Positions 1-12,079 of a stretch of 61,747 nt of DNA are shown piece by piece (the stretch's first letter is position 1; every line of letters starts with the position of its first letter). Both the position numbers and the translations under genes were made by a program. This DNA is from Saprospiraceae bacterium (GTDB taxonomy: Bacteria; Bacteroidota; Bacteroidia; Chitinophagales; Saprospiraceae). The stretch covers positions 1-61,747 of the forward strand of contig JANQLV010000080.1 in assembly GCA_028280415.1 (NCBI GenBank), in the 5' to 3' direction. The notes beneath the pieces were generated by a model. That model had not been told where the DNA came from, made no database searches, and saw only the letters and a program-made list of their open reading frames with translations.

Positions 1-292
1 AGTTCATTTTATGGAGCTTTTAGCTCAATTTAACTCTATTAGCTTATTTTTATTCAAATCGAAAAATCAGAAAACCTTCGTAACCGATTGATAACTAAAA
101 TATTATAACTAAACTTTGCTTAAACAACCGGACACTAGTGCAAAGGCTTATTAAATCACAAGCATCAGCCCAAAACGAATACTCTTTCGCTTCTTGCAAA
201 TCATCAATCAGTGTGGGCTTATACTATAATTTCAGGTACCTCAGCTATAGAAAACTTATCTTGCATTATATTCGAAAAGCAATTAAGTATAC
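1..292. other. Non-coding stretch upstream of pbpC
   Basis: AT-rich sequence with no convincing open reading frame on either strand. In many Bacteroidota a large alpha-2-macroglobulin-like gene lies just upstream of pbpC, but nothing of it is visible here. I could not pick out a clear TAnnTTTG promoter element. Confidence 0.5.
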
Positions 293-2698
293 ATGAAGCG
301 AATCAGGCGCGCATATCAATTTTTATTAAAAAAACATCGACGCAAGACTTTATTTGCCTTAGCCATACTGCTGCTTGCTTACTGGTTTTGTCTGCCTGCT
401 CCCCTCTTCAACGATCCAACGAGTATGGTCCTGGAAGATAACAATCAAAATCTTCTCGGAGCCCGGATTGCTGCCGATGAGCAATGGCGCTTTCCGCAAA
501 ACGATACTGTTCCTACTAAGTTTACTAAGGCGATTATCGAATTTGAAGACCGACGGTTTTACAGTCATCCGGGCTTTGATCTGATTGGAATTGGCCGGGC
601 TATTAAACAGAATATTTCCAATAAAAAAATTGTCAGCGGAGCCAGTACGATCAGTATGCAGGTAATCCGACTGGCAAGAAAGGGCAAATCGAGAAATGTT
701 TTGCAAAAACTCATTGAGCTCATAATGGCTACGCGTTTGGAAATCAAATATTCAAAAGATGAAATTCTGGCTTTCTATACTTCTAATGCTCCATTTGGCG
801 GCAATGTCGTTGGTTTGGATGCTGCTTCCTGGCGATACTATGGAAAAAGTCCGAGAGATTTATCCTGGAGCGAGGCGGCTACACTGGCCGTATTGCCCAA
901 TAGCCCTGCGCTGATTCATCCGGGAAGAAATCGCAATGCCCTAAAAGATAAACGCAACCGACTATTGGACAGGCTATACGAAAGTGGGCAAATTGATGAA
1001 TTGACCAGAGATCTAGCAAAAGAAGAATCATTGCCGCAAAAGCCCCTTCCTTTACCTCAATTGATCCCACATCTCATGGACAGAGCCTATCTGGAACATT
1101 TTCGGGGTCAAAAAGACAAACGGACCCGACTGGCTACTACGATTGACCGATCTTTGCAAGTCAGAGTGAATAATATTTTGGCAAGGCATAGTGAAATTTT
1201 GCAGGAAAATCATATATATAACGCAGCTTGTATCGTAGTGGAGGTGGAAACAGGAAATATCATCGCTTATGCCGGAAATGTCAAATCCGGAGCATTACAT
1301 CACGAGCAGGTGGATGTCATCAAAGCTCCGCGCAGTACCGGAAGTATTCTAAAGCCTTTTCTTTATAGTATGATGCTCAACGAAGGAGCTATCTTGCCCA
1401 ATAGTCTGGTATCTGACGTACCCACTCGTATGCATGGCTATCATCCCAAAAATTTTAATGAGACCTATGATGGTGTCGTTACAGCCAAAAAATCGGTTTC
1501 CCGTTCCTTGAATGTTCCACTGATCAGAATGCTCTCGGATTATGGCCTCGAAAAATTTCATTTTGGCTTGCAGGAACTGGGCTTTACTACAATTAACAAG
1601 CCTCCCGGGCATTATGGCTTGCCCCTGGTCTTAGGGGGAGCGGAGGCGAAGCTGGAAGATATTACCAATGCCTATGCCTGTATGGCCAGAACGCTCAACC
1701 ATTTTTATGAACATAATGGGAAATACGATTTCAAGGATTTCCGCCCGCTTAATTACGCGTTGCATAAAAAGCAATCCGCCAGCCCTATAAACAAGCTACA
1801 GGATGAGCCGATTCTATTGTCTGCAGCAGCCATTTATCAAACTTTTGAAGCGATGCAGGAAGTAGAACGCCCCAACTCACAGGGAGAATGGCAACATTTC
1901 GATTCCGGTAAACCAATTGCCTGGAAAACAGGAACAAGTTTCGGTTTTCGGGACGCCTGGGCAGTAGGTCTGACCCCTAAATATACGGTAGGCGTATGGG
2001 TGGGGAATGCGGACGGAGAAGGCCGCCCCGGATTGATTGGCGTACACGCAGCTGCCCCAATCCTGTTTGACGTTTTTGAACGATTGGATCACTCCGAATG
2101 GTTCGATCAGCCTTATGATGAAATGATTCGCGTGCCGGTCTGTGCCCAAAGTGGTTATCGTGCTTTAGCTTATTGCGAAGTGGATAGTACCTGGATATAC
2201 AAAAACGGTGTTCATGCTGAAGCTTGCAGGTATCATCAGCGCATACACCTGGATCAAAGTATGCAATTTCAGGTAAGCAGTCAATGTGTTTCGCCTTCAG
2301 AGATGGTTCACGAATCCAGATTTGTGCTTCCGCCGCTCGAAGCTTTCTATTTCAAATCAAAAAATCCCAACTATAAACCATTGCCACCATTTCGGAAAGA
2401 TTGCAATCCACAGTTGTCTGCTACTGAGCGACCGATGCAGATGATTTACCCCAAACATAAAGCCAGGATTTACGTCCCCGTTGATCTGGACGGGCATCTG
2501 AGCAGAACGGTTTTTAAAATGGCGCATCGTGACCCGGGGGTAAAAGCATTCTGGCACCTGGATAATGAATATATTGGTACGACAGAGGATTTTCACGACC
2601 TTGAACTACAGCCATCCATAGGAAAGCATTTATTAACCATTGTCGATGAACGAGGGAACAGGCTGGAAAGGTCTTTTGAAATTTATGGTAAAAATTAA
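293..2698 (+). CDS. pbpC: Penicillin-binding protein 1C (bifunctional transglycosylase/transpeptidase)
   Basis: Polymerises lipid II and cross-links peptidoglycan from the periplasmic face of the inner membrane. The 801-residue product has a basic N-terminus and one membrane anchor (about residues 19-37). A GT51 domain follows with the catalytic-glutamate motif EDRRFYSHPGFD (Glu85) and the block STISMQVIRL. The transpeptidase domain has the SxxK motif GSILKPF (about residue 350), SRSLN, and KTGTS (about residue 545). The last ~100 residues match the position of the BiPBP_C domain seen in PBP1C. Length is close to the roughly 770-800 usual for the family. ATG start; a shorter ORF beginning at 211 in another frame is a shadow. 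It stands alone on the plus strand and converges on the kinase gene. Confidence 0.93.
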   Translation: MKRIRRAYQFLLKKHRRKTLFALAILLLAYWFCLPAPLFNDPTSMVLEDNNQNLLGARIAADEQWRFPQNDTVPTKFTKAIIEFEDRRFYSHPGFDLIGIGRAIKQNISNKKIVSGASTISMQVIRLARKGKSRNVLQKLIELIMATRLEIKYSKDEILAFYTSNAPFGGNVVGLDAASWRYYGKSPRDLSWSEAATLAVLPNSPALIHPGRNRNALKDKRNRLLDRLYESGQIDELTRDLAKEESLPQKPLPLPQLIPHLMDRAYLEHFRGQKDKRTRLATTIDRSLQVRVNNILARHSEILQENHIYNAACIVVEVETGNIIAYAGNVKSGALHHEQVDVIKAPRSTGSILKPFLYSMMLNEGAILPNSLVSDVPTRMHGYHPKNFNETYDGVVTAKKSVSRSLNVPLIRMLSDYGLEKFHFGLQELGFTTINKPPGHYGLPLVLGGAEAKLEDITNAYACMARTLNHFYEHNGKYDFKDFRPLNYALHKKQSASPINKLQDEPILLSAAAIYQTFEAMQEVERPNSQGEWQHFDSGKPIAWKTGTSFGFRDAWAVGLTPKYTVGVWVGNADGEGRPGLIGVHAAAPILFDVFERLDHSEWFDQPYDEMIRVPVCAQSGYRALAYCEVDSTWIYKNGVHAEACRYHQRIHLDQSMQFQVSSQCVSPSEMVHESRFVLPPLEAFYFKSKNPNYKPLPPFRKDCNPQLSATERPMQMIYPKHKARIYVPVDLDGHLSRTVFKMAHRDPGVKAFWHLDNEYIGTTEDFHDLELQPSIGKHLLTIVDERGNRLERSFEIYGKN

Positions 2699-2720
2699 TC
2701 TGGGAATCAGGCACAAAAAT

Positions 2721-2813
2721 CTCCTACATTCGGAGGCTGGTGAATGTAGGAGAACTAAACATACTATGAGAAAACTACACAATCACAATGTATTAGTATT
2801 TATTGTAATATGA
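2721..2813 (+). repeat. Hairpin/MRKL mini-ORF unit 1
   Basis: A perfect 11-bp stem (CTCCTACATTC at 2721-2731, GAATGTAGGAG at 2742-2752, 10-base loop) is followed 13 bases later by ATGAGAAAACT. This opens a 15-residue frame (2766-2813) reading MRKLHNHNVLVFIVI. Units 2 and 3 share the layout. There is no U-tract after the stem, so it is not an ordinary terminator. Whether the peptide is translated is unknown. Confidence 0.6.
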
Positions 2814-3081
2814 AATGAATATTTATGCAGAGGGGATATATTGCAATTAAATGGTATCTATTTTTTAGATAATGGTCAGTTCTCTTTTCAATATTGTGTA
2901 TCCTTTTTCCAATTATAATGGTGTTAGAGGTTTTTTTCAAATATTTGTACAAAACTACATTACAGGCTTACCAGGCCTATATCGACCAATAATCCTGTAT
3001 CCGGAAGAACCACAGTTTCCTGGATATAAAATCCGGAATAGATACTATTTCTGAAGAATTAAATAATTGGGAAATAAAAAA

Positions 3082-3152
3082 TTCCTACACCTCAGAAGGG
3101 AAGAAGATGTAGGAAAATTAAACATACTATGAGAAAACTGATTCAAATTTAG
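3082..3152 (+). repeat. Hairpin/MRKL mini-ORF unit 2
   Basis: Stem TTCCTACA (3082-3089) pairs with TGTAGGAA (3108-3115). The linker TTAAACATACT leads into ATGAGAAAACTG, opening a 7-residue frame MRKLIQI (3129-3152). The stem differs from unit 1 at its outer pair, with a matching change on the other arm. Confidence 0.6.
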
Positions 3153-3300
3153 CATCCGTACAGGGGCTTTAAAACCTATAATTATGGAATGGGTTGGAAA
3201 TTAGGGTCAGCGGTAAGGCTATTTTAGAAAACGGTAGCAAAAATATATGTAAAACAGCTAAATCAGGGGGTAAACGACTTCCCTAAGAAAGAGAAAAAAT

Positions 3301-3390
3301 TTCCTGCACCTCAGGAGGGAGCAAGATGCAGGAAGATTAAACAAACATACTATGAGAAAACTATTCCAAATATATGTGTGTTTTCATTAA
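3301..3390 (+). repeat. Hairpin/MRKL mini-ORF unit 3
   Basis: Stem TTCCTGCA (3301-3308) pairs with TGCAGGAA (3327-3334). Relative to unit 2, an A has become G and the opposite T has become C, a compensatory change. The segment TTAAACAAACATACT then leads into ATGAGAAAACTATTC, opening a 12-residue frame MRKLFQIYVCFH (3352-3390). Units 2 and 3 stay similar for about ten bases past the ATGAGAAAACT block and then diverge. Confidence 0.6.
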
Positions 3391-3482
3391 TATTAAAGAT
3401 ATATTTATTTAAAGGAAAACAAATATGTATAAGTGGTAATATTTAACTAGTAAACGGTAGTTTCCAGGTTCGGAAAATGAAT

Positions 3483-5399
3483 CTACTGCTTCTGAATGAT
3501 TTCAACGGGGACCAATATTTCAACACGCGTACCGCTTGCTTCTCCGGTCGTTTTATCTTTTAGATCGATAGTTTTGACAAAAACGCCCTTGTTCCTGGAT
3601 TTATTAAGAATTTCGAGGCGGGCTTCGGTAATCATGGTTCCACGGGATTTGTGATTGACATGATAGTCATCTTGCTCTTGCAAACGTTTGACGGCATCTC
3701 TGCCAATCCCGTTATCTTCCACAATACAAAGAATAGTATTATCATCGTGTAATTTAAAATCTACTTTAATCAGGCCACTTTTCTTCTGGCGCAATCCATG
3801 TTCTATGGAATTTTCGACATAAGGCTGGACAATCATTGTCGGAACGCCCATGATATCCTCCTCTATTTCCTCATCGACGGCAATTCGATAAGACATTTTA
3901 TCACCAAAACGCAATTTTTGACTGATCAGCAGATAATTTTCGAGAAACTCAATCTCTTTTTCCAGGCTAATCACCTCAATATCAGAGTATTCCAGGCTCT
4001 GTCGCATAAGATGAGCAAATTTTGCAAGATATTTAGAGGCATCATTCAGCTCATTGGAAGTTATATATTTCTGAATAGAATTGAGTGCATTATACATGAA
4101 ATGCGGATTCATCTGAGAACGCAGGGCCTTGAGTTGTAAACCAACTGCCTGTAATTTTAAAAGTTCAGCTTCCTGCTTTTTTTTCTCCGCTTCGTACTTA
4201 AACTCCAATTCCATGAGCTGCTGTTTTTTAGTTTGCTCAAGATGTTCTTCTTTAAATCGATTATGGAGCTTTAGGTAACTGTAGGCATCCTGATAATCTC
4301 CTTTAACGGAATAATACTCGGCTACTTCTTCACAAACTTTAGAAAGCTGTTTATAATCCTTTTGCCTTTCGGCAAATTTGATGGCATTTGCGTAGTGTTT
4401 TTCGGCGCGCTTATCCTTGCCCGTTTCGGCATAAAGCTTCGCTTTTTTCATCTCTACAATAGAGAAATTCGAAAAATTGGGATTATCATTATTACTGTAA
4501 ATTTGCTCTGCGCGTTTATAAAGCTTTAATGCTTCCTCGTATTTTCCATCTCTAAAATAACAGGAGCCCAGGTTAGCAAAAGCGCCGGCCCGGGAATCTT
4601 GACTAATATCATCTTTAATTTTGATCGCCTTTCGAAAATATTCTTCGGCTTTGCGATCTCTTCCTTTACGCATATAAGCCTGACCAGCATTAAGATAATG
4701 CCAGGAAAGGCGGGTACGCATCCCAAGGGCTTCACTTAGATCAACTGCCTCTTCAAAAGCTTTGATACTCTTGCTTACTTCATCTGTACGCTCATAAATT
4801 CGTCCTAAAGCGCTCAGTATCAAGGTTCTGAAATAATAGTCCTTTAAACACAAATGGGGCAACATCCGGATTCTTTTATCCGCCTCCAGTAGTAGTTCGA
4901 TAGATTTTGGATAGTTGGAATATTTTTGATGCAGGAACCCTTCACGGCAGGTAAGCCAGGCTTCTAACTGGGGATCGGGAAAGTTTTTGAGTGATTTGGT
5001 CGCCTTATCCAGAAAGCCGGTAGCTTTCTCCAATTGGTTAAGGTTCATACAAGTACCGGCATAATCAATATAGCCTTCAATCTGTTGTTTGGTGTCTCCC
5101 CTTTCATCCAATAGTTCAATTGCATTTTTGTAATGAATCTCCGCAAGGTTATAATTGTAGAGCTGGTTTTCAATAAATCCGTTATTGAGATGATAAGAAA
5201 GCCTGAAATCCGGATAATCATGCTGCTTGAGTAATTCATCCTGCTCATGCAAATATTTTTGAGCTTTCAAAAAGTTGACAAAAGCATAAATTCCGGCCAG
5301 TTCATCAAGTAATTCCAATCGTTGATAGGCATCGACTGTTCTTGCCAGCCGGCTTTCCATGGATTTTAGATTGGGGGGTGTAGAGACTAACTGATTCAT
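3483..5399 (-). CDS. Soluble TPR histidine kinase, LytS-type (His_kinase PF06580)
   Basis: Sensor kinase partnered with the LytTR regulator at 5902-6675. Of 638 residues, about 1-385 form a run of TPR helices (for example AGAFANLGSCYFRDGKYEEALKLY). A charged coiled coil (about 385-420) follows, then the His_kinase block RSQMNPHFMYNALNSIQ with the phospho-accepting His near 433, then the ATPase N-box (VQPYVENSIEHGL) and G-box (EDNGIGRD). I see no signal peptide and no membrane span between TPRs and kinase, whereas many TPR/LytS kinases of Bacteroidota carry one, so this looks cytoplasmic. TPR bundles are the peptide-binding fold of RRNPP receptors, which fits the peptide gene directly upstream. 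A terminator lies between that gene and this one. ATG start; converges on pbpC. Confidence 0.88.
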   Translation of the reverse strand: MNQLVSTPPNLKSMESRLARTVDAYQRLELLDELAGIYAFVNFLKAQKYLHEQDELLKQHDYPDFRLSYHLNNGFIENQLYNYNLAEIHYKNAIELLDERGDTKQQIEGYIDYAGTCMNLNQLEKATGFLDKATKSLKNFPDPQLEAWLTCREGFLHQKYSNYPKSIELLLEADKRIRMLPHLCLKDYYFRTLILSALGRIYERTDEVSKSIKAFEEAVDLSEALGMRTRLSWHYLNAGQAYMRKGRDRKAEEYFRKAIKIKDDISQDSRAGAFANLGSCYFRDGKYEEALKLYKRAEQIYSNNDNPNFSNFSIVEMKKAKLYAETGKDKRAEKHYANAIKFAERQKDYKQLSKVCEEVAEYYSVKGDYQDAYSYLKLHNRFKEEHLEQTKKQQLMELEFKYEAEKKKQEAELLKLQAVGLQLKALRSQMNPHFMYNALNSIQKYITSNELNDASKYLAKFAHLMRQSLEYSDIEVISLEKEIEFLENYLLISQKLRFGDKMSYRIAVDEEIEEDIMGVPTMIVQPYVENSIEHGLRQKKSGLIKVDFKLHDDNTILCIVEDNGIGRDAVKRLQEQDDYHVNHKSRGTMITEARLEILNKSRNKGVFVKTIDLKDKTTGEASGTRVEILVPVEIIQKQ

Positions 5400-5416
5400 T
5401 ACAGGTTTAAATATAT

Positions 5417-5447
5417 AAAAAAAGGCTACATTTAAAAAAATGCAGCC
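5417..5447 (-). terminator. Intrinsic terminator/attenuator between peptide gene and kinase gene
   Basis: Read on the minus strand: GGCTGCATTT, a four-base T loop, AAATGTAGCC, then TTTTTTT. The stem is 10 bp with one G-U pair and is directly followed by seven Us. It begins about 30 bases after the peptide stop codon and ends 17 bases before the kinase ATG. It should make the peptide message more abundant than the kinase message. Confidence 0.8.
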
Positions 5448-5477
5448 CCATATATTTTGGCAGAGGTAGAGTTAAAA

Positions 5478-5630
5478 CTACTGTGGGCAGTCGTCTCCTA
5501 TACCACTGTTATCGTTACTGTGATTAGTGATTCCTCCATACATTTGAGACATATCGTCTTTTTGGAGTACACTATTTTGAAGATCATACATCAGATCTCG
5601 AAGTGGACTTTTATGTTTCTTGTTTCCCAT
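5478..5630 (-). CDS. Double-glycine leader peptide (50 residues), putative signal or RiPP-like precursor
   Basis: A short gene below the usual ORF cut-off, between the response regulator and kinase genes. The first 33 residues resemble a Bacteroidota GG leader: basic start MGNKKHKSPLRDL, then amphipathic VLQKDDMSQMYGG, comparable to the family pattern L-x-x-x-E/D-M/L-x-x-I-x-GG. Cleavage after Gly32-Gly33 would release ITNHSNDNSGIGDDCPQ, 17 residues, polar, with a single Cys near the end. No C39-peptidase ABC exporter or modifying enzyme is in the window, so processing is inferred. ATG start at 5630; strong terminator directly after. A weak promoter-like pair (TTG, 20 bases, TATTTTG) lies at 5707-5736. 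Family assignment is by pattern only; the ORF could be an unrelated small protein. Confidence 0.65.
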   Translation of the reverse strand: MGNKKHKSPLRDLMYDLQNSVLQKDDMSQMYGGITNHSNDNSGIGDDCPQ

Positions 5631-5901
5631 AGCGATCTGCTTTAAGAAAGTTCATTAATTCGGTTTATAGTTATAATAGTTTGTTTTAATCTTTAAGCTC
5701 TTGATACAAAATACAAATATTCTCCCTCTGGAACAACAAATCAGGAGCTAAATCCCCTTTTTTATAGCAAATAAATTAATCCCTCAAAAAACCATATGCA
5801 AACACAGATACCTATAACAGTTTAATAATCAATATACTTTACACAAAAGTGAATTCAAAAGTTAATAGTTTAAAAAACAGTCTACCAATTTTAATGAAAA
5901 A

Positions 5902-6675
5902 TCAAATCCCGTCCTGTAATTCATTAATCCTAAGCATAAAAGCAGGTCTTCTTCGGCGTGAAACCTCTATTTTTTTATTATCATCCATAATAAGATAGCC
6001 CCCATCTCCTTTTACAAACTTCCTCATGTAGTTTAAATTGATCAGGTGACTTTTATGTACTCTGTAAAAATTGACCCCGCTCAATAATTCTTCATAAGAC
6101 TTAATCGTCTTCGAAGCAGTGATCTTCTCGCCTGTTTTCAAATGAATATGCGTATAATTATCTTCGGCTTCACAGCGAATAATATCTTTGATATTGATGA
6201 AATAAATGCCATCCAGGGCCGAAATGCTCATTTTTTCAAAAGCATTGGGATGATTATTCGGGAAATATCGCTGCTCAAAAATTTCCATTCGCTCATTGAT
6301 CTGATTCGAATTACCAGGCTGAATTTTACTAACGGCCTGTTTCAACTGATCGGGATCAATAGGCTTCAGGATATATCCGATTGCACTATATTTGAAAGCT
6401 TCTACGGCGTATTGGTCAAAAGCAGTGATAAAAATGATATCAAATTTGGCATCCCCGTTTAATTCTTTTAGCATCTGAAACACCAGGCCATCGGGCAAGC
6501 TGATATCCAAAAAAGCCACATCGGGCTTAATTTCCTTATTGCGCAGCAAACTGACTGCCTCTTTATTATTGCGAGCCTCTCCGATCAAAGTCACATCGGG
6601 ACAGTGCTGGTTTAGCATATTCTTTAGATTGTCGAGACCATTAACTTCGTCTTCAACAATGATAGCTTTGATCAT
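5902..6675 (-). CDS. LytTR-family response regulator
   Basis: Two-component regulator of 257 residues. The receiver domain (1-120) has acidic pocket residues in IIVEDE, phospho-acceptor Asp57 (AFLDISLPDG), TAFDQYAVEAF, and the conserved Lys104 (YILKPID). The LytTR DNA-binding domain (about 150-255) includes EAEDNYTHIHLKTGEK, FYRVHKSHLINLNYM and the closing VSRRRRPAF. I chose the ATG at 6675 because the longer frame to 6750 would start upstream of the promoter at 6721-6750. It heads the minus-strand group regulator, peptide, kinase and is the obvious partner of the LytS-type kinase at 3483-5399. Confidence 0.92.
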   Translation of the reverse strand: MIKAIIVEDEVNGLDNLKNMLNQHCPDVTLIGEARNNKEAVSLLRNKEIKPDVAFLDISLPDGLVFQMLKELNGDAKFDIIFITAFDQYAVEAFKYSAIGYILKPIDPDQLKQAVSKIQPGNSNQINERMEIFEQRYFPNNHPNAFEKMSISALDGIYFINIKDIIRCEAEDNYTHIHLKTGEKITASKTIKSYEELLSGVNFYRVHKSHLINLNYMRKFVKGDGGYLIMDDNKKIEVSRRRRPAFMLRINELQDGI

Positions 6676-6720
6676 TTTACAATTTTGTTTTGAGAAATAT
6701 GTTTGTCTATGAGAGTACTT

Positions 6721-6750
6721 CAAAACTAGCAAAAAAGTTAAATTAAACAA
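6721..6750 (-). promoter_or_regulatory. Bacteroidota-type promoter of the LytTR regulator
   Basis: On the minus strand: TTG (6748-6750), 19 bases, then TAGTTTTG (6721-6728), an exact TAnnTTTG -7 element at the standard spacing. It predicts a start of transcription about 40 bases before the ATG at 6675 and supports that start codon. Confidence 0.65.
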
Positions 6751-6778
6751 AATAATGATATATATTTTCTACGAAACG

Positions 6779-6808
6779 AAATGCTATTCTTTTTAATGGG
6801 TAGCATTT
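6779..6808. repeat. Inverted repeat between divergent genes
   Basis: AAATGCTA (6779-6786) and TAGCATTT (6801-6808) form an 8-bp dyad between the divergent response regulator and potassium channel genes. The position rules out a simple terminator for either gene; a regulator binding site is possible but unproven. Confidence 0.3.
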
Positions 6809-6855
6809 TATTAGCTTCCCAATTATTTTTACATTGTGAGTAAATTAAGGTTTTT

Positions 6856-7689
6856 ATGCCCTCTACGCTCGACCCAAGAAAAGAAAAAATACACGAAATC
6901 ATCTTTGAAGCCGATACTCCGGCCGGGAAATTTTTTGATGTTACACTAATGATATTGATCATTCTCAGTGTAATCGTCGTCATGCTTGAGAGTGTCGATA
7001 GCCTGGAAGACAAGTACGGAAAGATTTTTTTTGCCCTTGAATGGTTTTTTACGATTTGTTTTACGATCGAATATGGATTAAGGCTATACTGTGTCTACCG
7101 ACCACGGAAATATGCCTTGAGTTTCTTTGGAATTGTTGATTTGCTTTCCATTATTCCGACTTATCTGAGTTTTTTGATCAGCGGGACACAATACCTAATC
7201 GTGATTCGTGCATTGCGATTGCTCCGGATTTTCAGAATTTTCAAATTGGTTCAGTTTCTCCGGGAAGGAAATATCATTGTAAGAGCTCTATTAGCCAGTC
7301 GGGCAAAGATTCTGGTGTTTATGCTTTTTATTTTGCTTATGGTAACGATCTTGGGTTCAATCATGTATCTGGTCGAAGCAGGAGCCAATGAGCAATTTGA
7401 CAGCATTCCCCGTTCCATCTACTGGGCCATTGTAACGCTCACTACAGTAGGTTATGGCGATATCTCTCCTACTACTGATTTTGGACAGTTTCTGGCAGCT
7501 TTTGTCATGCTCCTGGGTTATGCAGTCATAGCCGTTCCAACAGGTATTGTATCAGCCGCAATGATGCAGGAAAGGACCAATAAACCTCCACCCGCCAATA
7601 CAAAATCCTGCCGGTATTGTAGCAAGGAAGGGCATGATGAAGATGCAACTCATTGTAAGTATTGTGGTGAGGTTTTGAAGGAACCATAG
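6856..7689 (+). CDS. Voltage-gated potassium channel (Kv-like ion transporter) with C-terminal zinc ribbon
   Basis: Six-transmembrane K+ channel subunit of 277 residues. S1 (about 27-47) and S2 (about 54-76) lead to an S4 voltage-sensor helix with regularly spaced arginines, RALRLLRIFRIFKL (about 118-131). The pore loop LTTVGYGDISP carries the TVGYGD selectivity filter (about 197), and S6 follows. The last 30 residues carry two CxxC pairs (CRYCSKEG and CKYCGEVL), a small zinc ribbon on the cytoplasmic side. A zinc ribbon is not part of the KvAP/KvLm-type core; its role is unknown. Divergent from the LytTR regulator; converges on the DoxX gene. Confidence 0.88.
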   Translation: MPSTLDPRKEKIHEIIFEADTPAGKFFDVTLMILIILSVIVVMLESVDSLEDKYGKIFFALEWFFTICFTIEYGLRLYCVYRPRKYALSFFGIVDLLSIIPTYLSFLISGTQYLIVIRALRLLRIFRIFKLVQFLREGNIIVRALLASRAKILVFMLFILLMVTILGSIMYLVEAGANEQFDSIPRSIYWAIVTLTTVGYGDISPTTDFGQFLAAFVMLLGYAVIAVPTGIVSAAMMQERTNKPPPANTKSCRYCSKEGHDEDATHCKYCGEVLKEP

Positions 7690-7712
7690 ATGGATAGAAT
7701 AGCCTTCAAAAA

Positions 7713-8123
7713 TCAAACTTTTGTCGTAGCGAATAATCGTTTAACGCTATAGCGCCCACTCCCGTTTACAAAGATCATCAGCAATCCTCCAATAATGGCA
7801 ATATTCTTCATAAAAGCGATGGATTCGGCTCGTTGTATCTCAATCGGATCATTCCACCAGGAATGCACAATAAAGGTCACCGGAATCCAGTACAGCAGTA
7901 AGAGAACCGCTCCAAGTCCGGAGCGATATCCTACCAATACCAGAATTCCGCCCAATAATAACAAGATTATTGCACCCGTAAGTAGCAGATCCTGTTGCCA
8001 GGTAATGCCATAGGAAGTCATCAGCTCCTTGGTCGACTTAAAGAATTTCATAGAATCATAAGCCTCGAATAAAAAAATACAGGCAATTAGTACTCTGGCA
8101 ATCAGATCAGTTACATCCTTCAT
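7713..8123 (-). CDS. DoxX family membrane protein
   Basis: A 136-residue inner-membrane protein with about four hydrophobic helices (near 7-23, 47-66, 70-90 and 105-121). It begins DLIARVLIACIFLFEAYDSM, the usual DoxX/DoxD-like opening. The family covers membrane subunits or partners of oxidoreductases; the substrate cannot be told. It starts 12 bases after the stop of the FAD-dependent oxidoreductase, so the two are probably one transcript, which fits a redox role. Confidence 0.75.
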   Translation of the reverse strand: MKDVTDLIARVLIACIFLFEAYDSMKFFKSTKELMTSYGITWQQDLLLTGAIILLLLGGILVLVGYRSGLGAVLLLLYWIPVTFIVHSWWNDPIEIQRAESIAFMKNIAIIGGLLMIFVNGSGRYSVKRLFATTKV

Positions 8124-8135
8124 CTATCAATAAGT

Positions 8136-9695
8136 TTAAGACTCTAAAAAACGTTTTACGGCTCTGGCAACATTCTGTCCGTCCATTGCTGCCGAAATTA
8201 TCCCCCCGGCATAACCCGCACCTTCTCCACAGGGAAAAAGCCCCGGCATATCTTCGTGCATCAAAGTTTCTTTTTTCCGGGGAATGCGAATCGGAGAACT
8301 CGTTCGACTTTCCGTACCTATTACATTGGCTTCTTCGGTAAAATATCCCCTGAGTTTTTTACCAAAATACAACATCCCCTTTTGCAGCTTCCGGCTTATA
8401 AAAGCCGGCAATAATCTATGCACAGGGGCTTCATGTATCCCGGGAATATAACTGGTAGAAGGTAAATCTTTTGAAATTCTATCTTTTACAAAATCGGTCA
8501 TTCTTTGCGCCGGAGCATTTTGAGAACCATCTCCATTGGCAAACATCTTTTGTTCAACCGATTTTTGAAACTCCAGCCCTGCAAAAACACCGTATTGCCG
8601 ATACTTTTCTAAATCTGAAAGCTCTACCGCTACAACGGTTCCGCTATTGGCATAGGCCGAATCCCTGCGAGACATGGACATCCCGTTGACGACCAACTCT
8701 CCCGGAGCGGTAGCAGCCGGAACAACCAAACCTCCAGGGCACATACAAAAGGAAAAAACACCACGATCTGCTACCTGACAAGCAAGACGATAGCTTGCCG
8801 CTGGTAGTGCCGCTTCCCGCGGATGCTGCTTATATTGAATTTTATCAATCAACCACTGAGGATGTTCTACCCTTACGCCTAATGCAAATGGCTTGGCTTC
8901 TATTCTGATCCCTTTTTTATACAGCAAATAGTAAATATCTCTTGCCGAATGTCCGGTTGCCAAAATCACTGCTCTTCCCAAATGCTCCTCCCGCTCGTTA
9001 ACCACTACCCCCTTTATTTTCCCATTTTCAGCAATCAGGTCTGTAACCAGTGAATCAAAATGAACCTGTCCTCCATATTTTTCAATTGTCGCCCTGATAT
9101 TTGCAACAATCCCCGGCAGCTTGTTTGAACCGATATGCGGATGGGCATCTATCAGGATATCTGACTTTGCGCCATGCTCTACGAAAAGCTTCATTGCCTT
9201 ATAAATATTTCCACGCTTGTGAGAACGGGTATAGAGCTTGCCATCCGAATAAGTACCTGCTCCCCCTTCACCAAAACAATAATTGGAATTCGGATTTACC
9301 TCCCCAAATTGCTGAATGGCTCTGAGGTCTCTTCGCCGGCTACGAACGTCCTTACCCCGGTCAAAAACAACCGGTCGCAATCCTAGCTCAATGAGTTCTA
9401 AAGCGGCGAAGTACCCGGCCGGGCCCGCTCCAATAATAATCACCGGAGGCTGATCAGAAACCTCCCGGAATTGTTCAAGAATAGCAGGTTCTGGTTGAAA
9501 TACTTCAGCAAAAGAGAGTTCTACCCGCAATTGAATCAGCACTTTTTTCTGACGTGCATCAATTGATCTTCTGACCAATCTCCAGTCAACAGGCATTTTT
9601 CCTTTTTGCTTCGACTGACGCAGACATTGCGCTAGAATCTTTGTTTCATCACTCGCATCCGACGGGGAAAGTTTTATTTCAACCGTTTCAATCAT
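8136..9695 (-). CDS. Uncharacterised FAD-dependent dehydrogenase (COG2509-like)
   Basis: Flavoprotein of 519 residues. After an N-terminal ~80-residue region (RRSIDARQKKVLIQLRVEL) there is a Rossmann FAD-binding motif PPVIIIGAGPAGYFAALE (GAGPAG at 89-94). Mid-protein motifs are NSNYCFGEGGAGTYSDGKLYT and AVILATGHSARDIY. A C-terminal FAD-contact block reads GLFPCGEGAGYAGGIISAAMDG. This layout is that of a widespread family annotated only as NAD(P)/FAD-dependent oxidoreductase; the substrate is unknown. It is followed 12 bases later by DoxX. On the minus strand TACTTTTA, one base off the -7 consensus, lies only a few bases before the ATG. Confidence 0.85.
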   Translation of the reverse strand: MIETVEIKLSPSDASDETKILAQCLRQSKQKGKMPVDWRLVRRSIDARQKKVLIQLRVELSFAEVFQPEPAILEQFREVSDQPPVIIIGAGPAGYFAALELIELGLRPVVFDRGKDVRSRRRDLRAIQQFGEVNPNSNYCFGEGGAGTYSDGKLYTRSHKRGNIYKAMKLFVEHGAKSDILIDAHPHIGSNKLPGIVANIRATIEKYGGQVHFDSLVTDLIAENGKIKGVVVNEREEHLGRAVILATGHSARDIYYLLYKKGIRIEAKPFALGVRVEHPQWLIDKIQYKQHPREAALPAASYRLACQVADRGVFSFCMCPGGLVVPAATAPGELVVNGMSMSRRDSAYANSGTVVAVELSDLEKYRQYGVFAGLEFQKSVEQKMFANGDGSQNAPAQRMTDFVKDRISKDLPSTSYIPGIHEAPVHRLLPAFISRKLQKGMLYFGKKLRGYFTEEANVIGTESRTSSPIRIPRKKETLMHEDMPGLFPCGEGAGYAGGIISAAMDGQNVARAVKRFLES

Positions 9696-9797
9696 GCTGT
9701 AAAAGTAAGGAAGAATATATGAGAATTACAGATCAGGCAGCTATTTAATTCCAAACTCCTGATTTAAGGGCCGGGCTTATCGAGGTGAGTTTCTGGT

Positions 9798-10238
9798 TCA
9801 ATTAGAGTTTTCTTCGGTGGTTGGTTCTTTGCGAATCAGATTGTTTTGATCAAGGATGTCGAAATCTTCCGGAACCAGTACCCGTACCCTAATGATTTCG
9901 AAGCATTCTCCCTTTTTGGTTTTGATTGGTTTTCTTTCTTTATCAAAAGAGCTAAGCAGTATTGCATTATCGAGGGTATCTGCTTTTACATCATATCGCC
10001 CTTCTTTCTTAAAAAAGTTGTAAATATCCTTGGAAGCAGAATAGAGTTCAATACTGGTTTCAATTAAGATGGCATTACCGGCCCACTCCACAATTTCATA
10101 ATCTCCAACTAAATCCAGCTGAATATTATTGAGTTCTTCAATCTCAAAACTTTGATGTAATATTTTTTTGACTTGCCCCGAGCTAAGATTCAGGCAACAA
10201 AAAGATAATATTATCAAAGAAACTAATCTAATCATCAT
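9798..10238 (-). CDS. Secreted protein, paralogue of its upstream neighbour (DUF4097-like)
   Basis: About 146 residues from the ATG at 10238, chosen because it starts a good signal peptide (MMIRLVSLIILSFCCLNLSSGQ); the frame stays open to 10298 without purpose. The mature part reads LHQSFEIEELNNIQLDLVGDYEIVEWAGNAILIETSIEL and aligns along its length with the protein at 10427-10879 (SFNLQGEDVVLLDLDGEVEVKEWDNK). The pattern of a strand followed by VxEWxxxxIxVxxxI recalls DUF4097/GIN-type beta repeats. No enzyme motif is seen. The pair looks like a tandem duplication; this copy is more diverged and has lost the Thr/Ser-rich tail. Confidence 0.6.
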   Translation of the reverse strand: MMIRLVSLIILSFCCLNLSSGQVKKILHQSFEIEELNNIQLDLVGDYEIVEWAGNAILIETSIELYSASKDIYNFFKKEGRYDVKADTLDNAILLSSFDKERKPIKTKKGECFEIIRVRVLVPEDFDILDQNNLIRKEPTTEENSN

Positions 10239-10361
10239 AATAAAATAACTACTGTTGAGATTTCTTCCAAAAATACATGCATTCATCAGGATACACAACG
10301 AATGGAAGAGGAATTAAGGATACTTTAACAGCAAATACCCTGCCTCTAGGCTAAAATATGT

Positions 10362-10399
10362 AAAAAAGGGTATGATCCGAAATCGAACCATACCCTTTT
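10362..10399 (-). terminator. Rho-independent terminator of the 10427-10879 gene
   Basis: Minus strand: AAAAGGGTATG, a 14-base loop, CATACCCTTTT, extended by two more Us. The 11-bp stem starts 28 bases after the stop codon. It separates the two tandem paralogues into different transcripts, and its symmetry may also work on the plus strand. Confidence 0.75.
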
Positions 10400-10426
10400 A
10401 ATGGGAAGGAAGTCTTAATCAGCTAC

Positions 10427-10879
10427 CTATAATGATGATTTTGTGAGTGTTGTAGCGGTTGTAGAAGATCCGCCAGTCATCTTTACGGTAACATTTTCAG
10501 GGGCGAATACAGTAAAAACTATATTTTCTTTAAGTACTTTGCCTCGCACTTTTATTTCTTTATTCATTGCCGGGGCATAAACCTTGAATTCCTCATTTTC
10601 AATCATAGATTTCAAATTATAGCGACCAACTTGTACCAAAGACTTTAGCATAGAGTTCGTTCCGCCTTCAAGATTGATTGTCATTTGAACCCGCATAATC
10701 TTGTTGTCCCACTCTTTAACCTCGACCTCTCCATCGAGGTCCAATAGCACGACATCTTCTCCTTGCAGGTTAAAAGACTTCACCAGTGTTTTCTCAATTT
10801 GAGTCTGTGAATAACTTATCGTTGCCACTAACAATAGTAGCCCGATATTCACGATTGCTACTAATTTTTTCATATTCAC
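10427..10879 (-). CDS. Secreted protein, tandem paralogue (DUF4097-like)
   Basis: 150 residues with a signal peptide (MNMKKLVAIVNIGLLLLVATISYSQ, cleavage after SYS-Q likely). The mature chain is beta-rich: VVLLDLDGEVEVKEWDNKIMRVQMTINL, then VGRYNLKS and ENIVFTVFAPENVTVKM. It ends in a Ser/Thr-rich tail. It is homologous to the downstream neighbour but separated from it by a strong terminator. Probably periplasmic or surface; function unknown. No T9SS sorting tail is present. Confidence 0.6.
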   Translation of the reverse strand: MNMKKLVAIVNIGLLLLVATISYSQTQIEKTLVKSFNLQGEDVVLLDLDGEVEVKEWDNKIMRVQMTINLEGGTNSMLKSLVQVGRYNLKSMIENEEFKVYAPAMNKEIKVRGKVLKENIVFTVFAPENVTVKMTGGSSTTATTLTKSSL

Positions 10880-10942
10880 TTTTTTTGAAATTTTTATTTA
10901 AAATAAAATAATAAATTGTAAAAATCAATAAAATGGCAAATT

Positions 10943-11764
10943 TTATTTTGAAAAACTTAAACCATCCCTAATTTTAATTAATCTAAATAAGAGGTCTTCC
11001 ATTTTGTTCAGGGGCAGCATATTAGCTCCATCCGAAAGTGCTTTTTCAGGTTGAGGATGTGTCTCAATAAAAAGTCCATCCACTCCAACGGCAACGCCAG
11101 CTCTTGCAATCGTCTCAATCATTGCTGGTTTTCCACCGGTTATCCCCGTGTGCTGATTAGGCTGTTGCAATGAATGCGTGCAATCCAGTACGACTTTGGC
11201 CCCAAAGGATTGCATAACCGGAATACCTCTGAAATCAACTACTAAATCCTGATACCCAAAAGTTGTCCCTCTTTCGGTCAAAAGCACTTTGTCATTACCG
11301 GAAACAAGTACTTTATTCAAAGCGAATTGCATGGCTTCTGCACTGAGGAATTGCCCTTTTTTAATATTTACAACTTTCCCCGTTTTCGCTGCTGCAACCA
11401 AAAGGCTGGTTTGACGACACAAAAAAGCCGGAATCTGTAGGATGTCTACATATTGAGCTGCAATTGCCGCCTCCGTATCAGAATGGATATCCGTCGTTAC
11501 GGGAATATCAAAAGTCTCTCCGATCTTCCGAAGAATGTTTAATGCCTTTTCATCTCCGATCCCAGTAAAAGAATCCAATCGGGACCTGTTTGCCTTGCGA
11601 TAAGAACCTTTAAAAACATAAGGGATTTGCAGCTTATTACAAATTTGACTGAGCTGTTCAGCGATATTAAATGCCATTTCTTCCCCTTCAATAGCACAAG
11701 GGCCGGCAATCAGAAAGAAATTACCGGAATTAGAATGTTTTATTTTAGGAATGACATCTAACAT
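10943..11764 (-). CDS. kdsA: 3-deoxy-8-phosphooctulonate synthase (KDO-8-P synthase)
   Basis: Condenses phosphoenolpyruvate with arabinose-5-phosphate to KDO-8-phosphate for lipopolysaccharide inner core, in the cytoplasm. 273 residues, the normal length. Diagnostic blocks are FLIAGPCAIEGEE, PYVFKGSYRKANRSRLDSFTGIG, TDIHSD, DILQIPAFLCRQT, VNIKKGQFLSAEAM, VLLTERGTTFGYQDLVVDFRG, CTHSLQQP and FIETHPQPEKALSDGANMLPL. The Cys in the first block and the Asp of SDGAN sit at metal-ligand positions of the metal-dependent subclass. Single gene with a good promoter. Confidence 0.95.
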   Translation of the reverse strand: MLDVIPKIKHSNSGNFFLIAGPCAIEGEEMAFNIAEQLSQICNKLQIPYVFKGSYRKANRSRLDSFTGIGDEKALNILRKIGETFDIPVTTDIHSDTEAAIAAQYVDILQIPAFLCRQTSLLVAAAKTGKVVNIKKGQFLSAEAMQFALNKVLVSGNDKVLLTERGTTFGYQDLVVDFRGIPVMQSFGAKVVLDCTHSLQQPNQHTGITGGKPAMIETIARAGVAVGVDGLFIETHPQPEKALSDGANMLPLNKMEDLLFRLIKIRDGLSFSK

Positions 11765-11816
11765 AAAAACGGTTTTGGCTCAGGTCATTTTGGTTGTAAT
11801 TTCTACAATTAGAACA

Positions 11817-11847
11817 CAAATGTATTAGAATAAGTTCTACTTTTCAA
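11817..11847 (-). promoter_or_regulatory. Promoter of kdsA
   Basis: Minus strand: TTG (11845-11847), 20 bases, TACATTTG (11817-11824), an exact TAnnTTTG -7 element. It lies about 50 bases upstream of the kdsA ATG. Confidence 0.65.
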
Positions 11848-12079
11848 GGTTTTTCACAAAATTTAATTTTAATTTAAAAATACAAAAAACACTTATACAG
11901 TATATAATTCTGAATCAACAAGCAATTCAAAAATATGTTTTATAATCTACTAAATATTGAAATTCTAACTCTCAATTTGACTATTTTGCAAAATCTGTAT
12001 ATTGGGATTCATATATAAGGGTTAATCCAGAGCAATAAAATGCAATACCTGTATCTGCTGATACTCCAAATTCAAAAGT
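11848..12079. other. AT-rich intergenic stretch between kdsA and the methyltransferase
   Basis: Together with the kdsA leader this is a 315-base gap between divergent genes. I see only short unsupported frames (up to 27 codons) and no hairpin with a U-tract. The promoter of the methyltransferase operon must lie here but I cannot place it. Confidence 0.5.

Follow-up and report, generated by a model that had tools for sequence, protein, structure and literature searches.

A 50-codon gene that lies between a LytTR response regulator and a tetratricopeptide repeat (TPR) histidine kinase is kept under strong selection and is a promising candidate for a peptide signal not yet described in the Saprospiraceae. 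It is found in a 61,747-nucleotide stretch (hereafter the window) of contig JANQLV010000080.1 from a Saprospiraceae bacterium (GCA_028280415.1), where the minus strand carries in order the regulator (6675–5902), the 50-codon open reading frame (ORF; 5630–5478) and the kinase (5399–3483). The three genes probably form a peptide-signal module, in which a peptide with a double-glycine (GG) leader, exported by a C39 peptidase transporter, serves the cytoplasmic TPR kinase as ligand and the LytTR regulator provides the output. This reading is based on conservation, purifying selection, linkage, co-occurrence with the kinase and with an exporter, the absence of a clear membrane helix in the kinase and group-typical conservation in the groove of its sensor. 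An earlier, sequence-only reading of the window had proposed a secreted GG peptide sensed by a TPR kinase, an interpretation that is partly supported here.

In the module that we propose, the small gene would encode a precursor with a GG leader; a C39 peptidase–ABC exporter, whose gene lies in another part of the genome, would cut this leader off and set free a core of approximately 13–28 residues. The core would reach the cytoplasmic kinase either by re-entry from outside or before export, and its conserved end, canonically CGGIxPQ, would be recognized in the concave TPR groove. Binding of the core would change the flow of phosphate to the LytTR regulator. The peptide gene, immediately downstream of the regulator gene, is probably under the control of this regulator, which would thereby close a feedback loop. 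Phosphotransfer and feedback, like export, cleavage, re-entry and binding, are steps that we infer. More tentatively, and with slightly less than even confidence, we suggest a Bacteroidota pheromone that joins streptococcal-style export to reception by a TPR kinase in the style of the RRNPP receptors, with the free C-terminal Pro-Gln end clamped in the groove and with one sub-lineage that dropped leader and exporter together and so made the circuit an intracellular signal private to the cell.

Peptide pheromones are best known from Gram-positive bacteria. If the proposal is correct, a widespread family would gain a testable cell–cell signal with a short synthetic ligand, a receptor and a regulator that can be named, and hosts in culture (Lewinella cohaerens and Neolewinella marina). 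Several members of the Saprospiraceae are filamentous.

Recurrence and selection of the peptide gene

Neither Pfam nor NCBIfam gave a match for the 50-codon ORF, and no further minus-strand ORF of at least 40 amino acids lies between the three genes, which confirms the uninterrupted order described in the sequence-only reading. A kinase orthologue (E up to 1e-80) occurs in 30 of the 61 sampled genomes of the window's family, Saprospiraceae. Upstream of most orthologues, in loci covered with flanks of about 1.5–5 kb, lies an ORF of the same plan, with a basic N terminus, a GG-ended leader and a core that ends in approximately GGIxPQ. A profile of 24 peptides from 23 genomes (alignment A1), drawn from kinase-adjoining loci of this same 61-genome sample, has matches at E < 1e-5 in 26 of the 30 kinase-positive genomes and in none of the 31 kinase-negative genomes (Fisher p 2e-13). 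The expectation that the ORF and its GG site would recur beside the same pair of genes is thus borne out.

In an order-wide sample of 248 genomes, profile matches (E up to 1e-4) are found in 30 and the kinase in 34, every one of them Saprospiraceae. Among the 34, 29 have a profile match, three (G238, G259 and G266) have, ahead of the kinase gene, a divergent GG peptide that the profile does not match, one has a GG-less peptide and for one no peptide was found. Seven of the 34 had given rows to the profile; of the remaining 27, 22 have profile matches, a less circular count than the 26 of 30. The sole match in a class-wide sample of 295 genomes is the window's own genome. Carriers of the peptide include Lewinella cohaerens, Neolewinella marina and Lewinella sp. 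JB7 and IMCC34183. Ten sampled genomes of genus g7 have the peptide and C39, nine of them with a kinase match too; in the remaining one (G254) the peptide is followed by a kinase-like frame that is truncated in the stretch covered, and a further g7 genome (G201) matches neither peptide nor kinase nor C39.

The gene is under purifying selection. Across 18 close pairs, which were chosen for closeness and equal length, in part share a member and in several cases have saturated synonymous sites, the synonymous difference per site (pS) is 0.61 and the non-synonymous difference (pN) is 0.04; one pair has 14 synonymous and zero non-synonymous differences. Judged by such comparisons of sequence, the ORF is a genuine gene and belongs to a family of peptides.

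The place of the gene beside the regulator is kept even in three genomes (G051, G033 and G015) in which the kinase lies elsewhere: the peptide still follows a LytTR regulator, although the peptide match in G015 is weak (E 0.003). G033 has a second copy of the peptide, and no regulator was seen beside that copy. In the window's genome a single-sequence search (E up to 10) gave no second copy of the ORF; the profile later gave four more weak matches there (E 0.009–0.86). In G046 (L021/L073) the peptide gene is present twice in tandem, with ends TGGIVPQ and AGSVFAPQ, ahead of a single kinase gene. Three further loci of related genomes (L200, L203 and L204) encode a second type of GG-leader peptide with a TIDTRT stretch, and no LytTR regulator was seen beside them.

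Peptide anatomy

We examined 66 distinct peptides (E below 1e-4, plus six selected for their place, leader or end), a set that excludes L200, L203 and L204 of the other GG type. The predicted leader of the window peptide comprises residues 1–33 (5532–5630, minus strand) and ends with GG at residues 32–33. Relative to the cut, it has L at −12, D at −8, M at −7 and M at −4. Across the set, in which the best-scoring of several possible GG pairs was used, a choice that favours a fit to the C39 pattern, position −12 is L, I, V or M in all 66 members, position −8 is D or E in 49 and position −7 is M or L in 58. The C39 leader pattern given in PMC6363468 is Leu(−12), Glu(−8) and Leu(−7), with which these leaders agree in sequence; the GG leader first noticed in the window fits this pattern. 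By inspection, the window peptide has a C39-type GG leader and no hydrophobic N-terminal stretch.

The predicted core is 13–28 residues long across members and 17 in the window (ITNHSNDNSGIGDDCPQ, 5481–5531, minus strand). Its canonical end is CGGIxPQ: P is penultimate in all 66 members (six of which were added partly by ending), Q is last in 54 and C stands at −7 of the tail in 45. The window core keeps the terminal PQ and lacks the canonical CGGI, and the end CGGIVPQ is found both in a same-genus relative (L010) and in the closest relative of the named collection (L080).

C39 exporters

The C39 peptidase family (PF03412) is found in 28 of the 30 kinase-positive genomes of the family versus 7 of the 31 kinase-negative genomes; in the order-wide sample it is present in 33 of the 34 kinase-positive genomes versus 96 of 248 overall. 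An exporter elsewhere in the genome, which the sequence-only reading had called for, was found: the window's own genome has four C39 matches, three of them in full frames of peptidase-containing ABC transporters (PCATs), and by eye each of the three adjoins a gene like those of membrane fusion proteins (MFP/HlyD). The PCAT of contig C24 shares 76% identity with the single PCAT found in G577 (the genome that carries L080), in a comparison that covers 10 of the 12 examined loci (L206 and L213 were left out). The C24-type PCAT and MFP pair is a candidate exporter for the peptide, as a lead only.

The C24 pair lies, by eye, beside GldN/GldM-like genes in the window's genome (L165, G000:C24, 2068–10371), as does the pair of G577 (L209). 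Another locus of the window's genome (L166, G000:C27, 2806–9521, minus strand) holds a cluster like those for ribosomally synthesized and post-translationally modified peptides (RiPPs), with one PCAT and MFP unit inside; by eye it also has genes for a radical-SAM-like protein rich in cysteine and for an ATP-grasp-like protein, as well as four short ORFs with a GGEL or GGAL motif.

The kinase as candidate receptor

The kinase (638 amino acids; 3483–5399, minus strand) has the TPR type and apparent solubility attributed to it in the sequence-only reading. Several TPR models of Pfam match it, and its highest 19-residue hydropathy is 1.01, with a maximum of 1.71 over 53 kinase rows of two alignments; six other LytS-type kinases of the same genome range from 1.29 to 2.90, a control that separates only in part. 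We therefore predict a cytoplasmic kinase without a clear membrane helix. The catalytic half contains a His_kinase domain (PF06580, E 7.9e-23; residues 422–501, 3897–4136) that includes the phospho-acceptor H433, and a HATPase region (residues 523–633, 3501–3833) with E 0.00035, under the Pfam cut-off score, in which N530 and G564 are invariant.

An AlphaFold2 model from 27 sequences (mean pLDDT 86, mostly >90 over residues 11–380; pTM 0.62) predicts helix pairs that we count as nine TPR-like repeats, followed by a long helix before the catalytic domain. The solenoid (approximately residues 11–368, 4296–5369) is the candidate peptide-binding domain. Two kinase alignments were used: A2, with 26 of the 30 loci, and A3, with 26 of the 27 named-collection loci plus the window. 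Six residues (N119, R152, D187, R230, W233 and N276) are invariant in 26 orthologues, and in the model each sits in the first helix of its repeat or adjacent to it. First helices of TPR repeats face the ligand, and here they are more conserved than the second helices (entropy 1.54 versus 1.92 and 1.78 versus 2.19).

This conservation is typical of the group. Among 28 paralogous TPR kinases, counting gaps and unaligned positions as non-conserved (12, 13, 13, 2, 4 and 1 of the 28, respectively), N119 is kept in 6, R152 in 1, D187 in 7, R230 in 1, W233 in 0 and N276 in 6; the catalytic H433, N530 and G564 are present in 28 of 28 paralogues and are invariant in the orthologues. Structural matches of the model have designed TPRs and O-GlcNAc transferase on top, followed by LGN–peptide complexes and, lower, Rap–Phr pairs. 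Such matches are compatible with peptide binding, although TPR folds in general share them.

Alternative readings of the module

One lineage separates leader from tail. In G026 (locus L034) and G584 (L098), basic peptides of about 50 residues that have no GG lie directly upstream of the kinase; they end in NTYCGVSTPQ and NTFCGMPTPQ, respectively, and so share CGxxTPQ. No C39 was found in G026, which is listed as 100% complete, or in G584, whose completeness is not rated. Because leader and exporter are missing together and the tail is kept, this lineage points to the conserved tail as the working part of the peptide and to the GG as an export tag, and the pairing of GG-less peptides with no detected C39 suggests that sensing need not involve export. 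Clear regulator orthologues are present in G010 (63%) and G015 (62%), and none was found in G026 or G584, where the best matches by E are 43% and 38% identical; the lineage may thus have changed the circuit. It offers a natural test of export as part of the signal.

The main rival to our proposal, which we consider unlikely, builds on the same observations: the kinase would bind the peptide or its precursor before export and report synthesis or an export backlog, with C39 removing the ligand. A kinase without a clear membrane helix fits such internal sensing, as do the GG-less peptides that keep CGxxTPQ in genomes without detected C39, and an outer membrane would hinder the return of an exported peptide. 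However, nearly all other lineages retain GG and C39, both of them needless for a purely internal signal, and the GG-less genomes are the very ones in which the circuit may be changed.

The second rival, to which we give somewhat less credence still, takes the peptide as an exported effector, a bacteriocin-like or other extracellular product whose production the kinase and regulator merely control on another cue. Many bacteriocins and RiPPs use GG leaders and C39 exporters, the peptide stays beside the regulator even where the kinase has moved, and one genome (G028) keeps the kinase with no peptide found. Yet the C terminus is near-invariant across divergent genomes, unlike that of diversifying bacteriocins, and most loci have a single copy. 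In addition, no modification, immunity or exporter gene was recognized by eye beside the precursor among the ORFs of window positions 1–12000, where some of the neighbouring genes were scanned. A chance ORF with a fortuitous GG motif, for which the lack of a Pfam or NCBIfam match and the least typical tail of the window copy could be cited, we reject as having virtually no chance of being correct, because the ORF recurs in place in most of the orthologous loci examined and pS far exceeds pN.

Several observations weigh against an exported peptide as ligand of the kinase. The loci that supplied the profile adjoin the kinase and belong to genomes that the profile then counts; the cut at E < 1e-5 was chosen after the list was seen; at E ≤ 1, 39 of the 61 genomes match, 12 kinase-negative ones among them (best E 0.05); and the co-occurrence counts ignore phylogeny. 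The linkage of regulator and peptide would also be explained by an exported effector under the control of the response regulator. In G028 the kinase (L036) retains the same groove residues despite the lack of a detected peptide. In G010 the kinase is present and no peptide was detected; the regulator directly adjoins the kinase there, and a C39 match is missing from this 87% complete assembly. Among 16 genomes reached through named-collection loci, G583 keeps the kinase and C39 with a peptide match of only E 0.145, G592 keeps both with only a GG peptide of another type, and G581 has a GG peptide and no C39 match (a 3.3-Mb assembly, completeness not rated). The peptide adjoins neither partner in G040, G585, G586, G590 and G591. 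The window's own peptide keeps the leader and has the atypical tail GDDCPQ. In the second kinase alignment (27 rows) conservation of R152 falls to 89% and that of D187 to 93%, and similarity to Rap is common to TPR folds in general.

Relation to known systems

The proposed module resembles the ComC/ComD/ComE and Blp-type systems of streptococci, which likewise combine a GG-leader peptide, a C39 exporter, a histidine kinase and a LytTR regulator, with the peptide and regulator genes close together. In the window, too, the GG-leader gene adjoins the kinase and regulator genes (with the exceptions among genomes given above), its leader fits the C39 pattern and a C39 exporter is encoded in the genome. 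ComD-type kinases, however, are polytopic membrane receptors that read the peptide outside, whereas the present kinase has a TPR sensor and no clear membrane helix.

FimS-like TPR kinases of the LytS type in Bacteroidota share the combination of TPR and PF06580, and the window kinase has the LytS-type hallmarks (the His_kinase domain, H433 and the ATPase residues N530 and G564). Its match to the NCBIfam FimS model is 49 bits, far below the cut-off of 600, and R152, R230, W233 and N276 are mostly not conserved in the 28 paralogues. We know of no peptide gene beside FimS-like kinases.

The RRNPP receptors of Firmicutes (Rap, NprR, PlcR, PrgX and Rgg) are cytoplasmic TPR proteins, as predicted here, encoded beside propeptide genes, and Rap–Phr structures are among the structural matches of the present kinase. 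They are delimited in PMC10075063 as receptors of 250–500 amino acids whose propeptides are exported by Sec or PptAB. Such receptors have no kinase domain; the present receptor is instead a 638-residue histidine kinase with a separate LytTR regulator, the leader is of the C39 type and the host belongs to the Bacteroidota. As the kinase differs from the membrane receptors of ComCDE, and its size and the C39-type leader are unlike RRNPP, we file the module under neither.

Among cyanobacteria, the target of PatS, HetR, is not a kinase. HetC of filamentous cyanobacteria, which acts in the setting of PatS and HetN, is a C39–ABC exporter suggested to export regulatory peptides (PMC10986499); its substrate is not identified there. 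Closer in lineage are RiPP clusters of Bacteroidales, most of which have C39 transporters, one a histidine kinase and regulator and two TPR genes, and the mature peptides of some of which may signal, as suggested in PMC10352776. Those clusters differ in that their peptides are modified, their hosts are Bacteroidales and LytTR is unmentioned in that text; no modification gene was recognized near the window locus. Our literature search found no description of the present module in Bacteroidota, which is weak evidence, as subscription journals and preprints are poorly covered.

Regulator, hairpin and neighbouring features

The regulator (257 amino acids; 5902–6675, minus strand, with ATG at 6675) combines a receiver and a LytTR DNA-binding domain (Response_reg E 4e-17 and LytTR E 1.7e-20 in the Pfam search). 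The precursor gene itself (5478–5630, minus strand) starts with ATG. Between it and the kinase gene lies a hairpin followed by a T run (5423–5448, minus strand), a feature that the sequence-only reading does not mention and that we read as terminator-like; its position suggests that more peptide message than kinase message is made. Hairpins of this kind, at −10 kcal/mol or lower, occur in 33 of 43 peptide rows, a count made without a shuffled control. Alignment A4 holds 22 of these 33 hairpins, and 92.2% of its cells are paired, with two-sided changes in 12 of 14 pairs; as the hairpins were chosen because they fold and were trimmed by hand, these figures show hairpin recurrence only. The stem sequence, about GGRYTRCA and its complement (window 5448–5423), is recognizable across diverged species in A4.

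For an expectation-maximization motif search we used the upstream regions of 37 of the 43 rows, dropping six near-duplicates. The first run returned the coding tail of the regulator. A run on trimmed regions gave a promoter-like motif, AATAATTTTGTACTTTTA, with a log-likelihood of 90 compared with 63–84 for four base-shuffled controls that had fewer restarts; in the window this motif has a score of only 0.9. Another motif, TAATAAAAAAATGTAA, seeded by hand, came to 57.9, without a control of its own. We claim no LytTR binding site.

A potassium-channel-like gene (window 6856–7689, plus strand) diverges from the adjoining LytTR gene. The same potassium-channel-like neighbour stands beside LytTR in G051 (L160, 5806–6636, minus strand), where the kinase has moved away.

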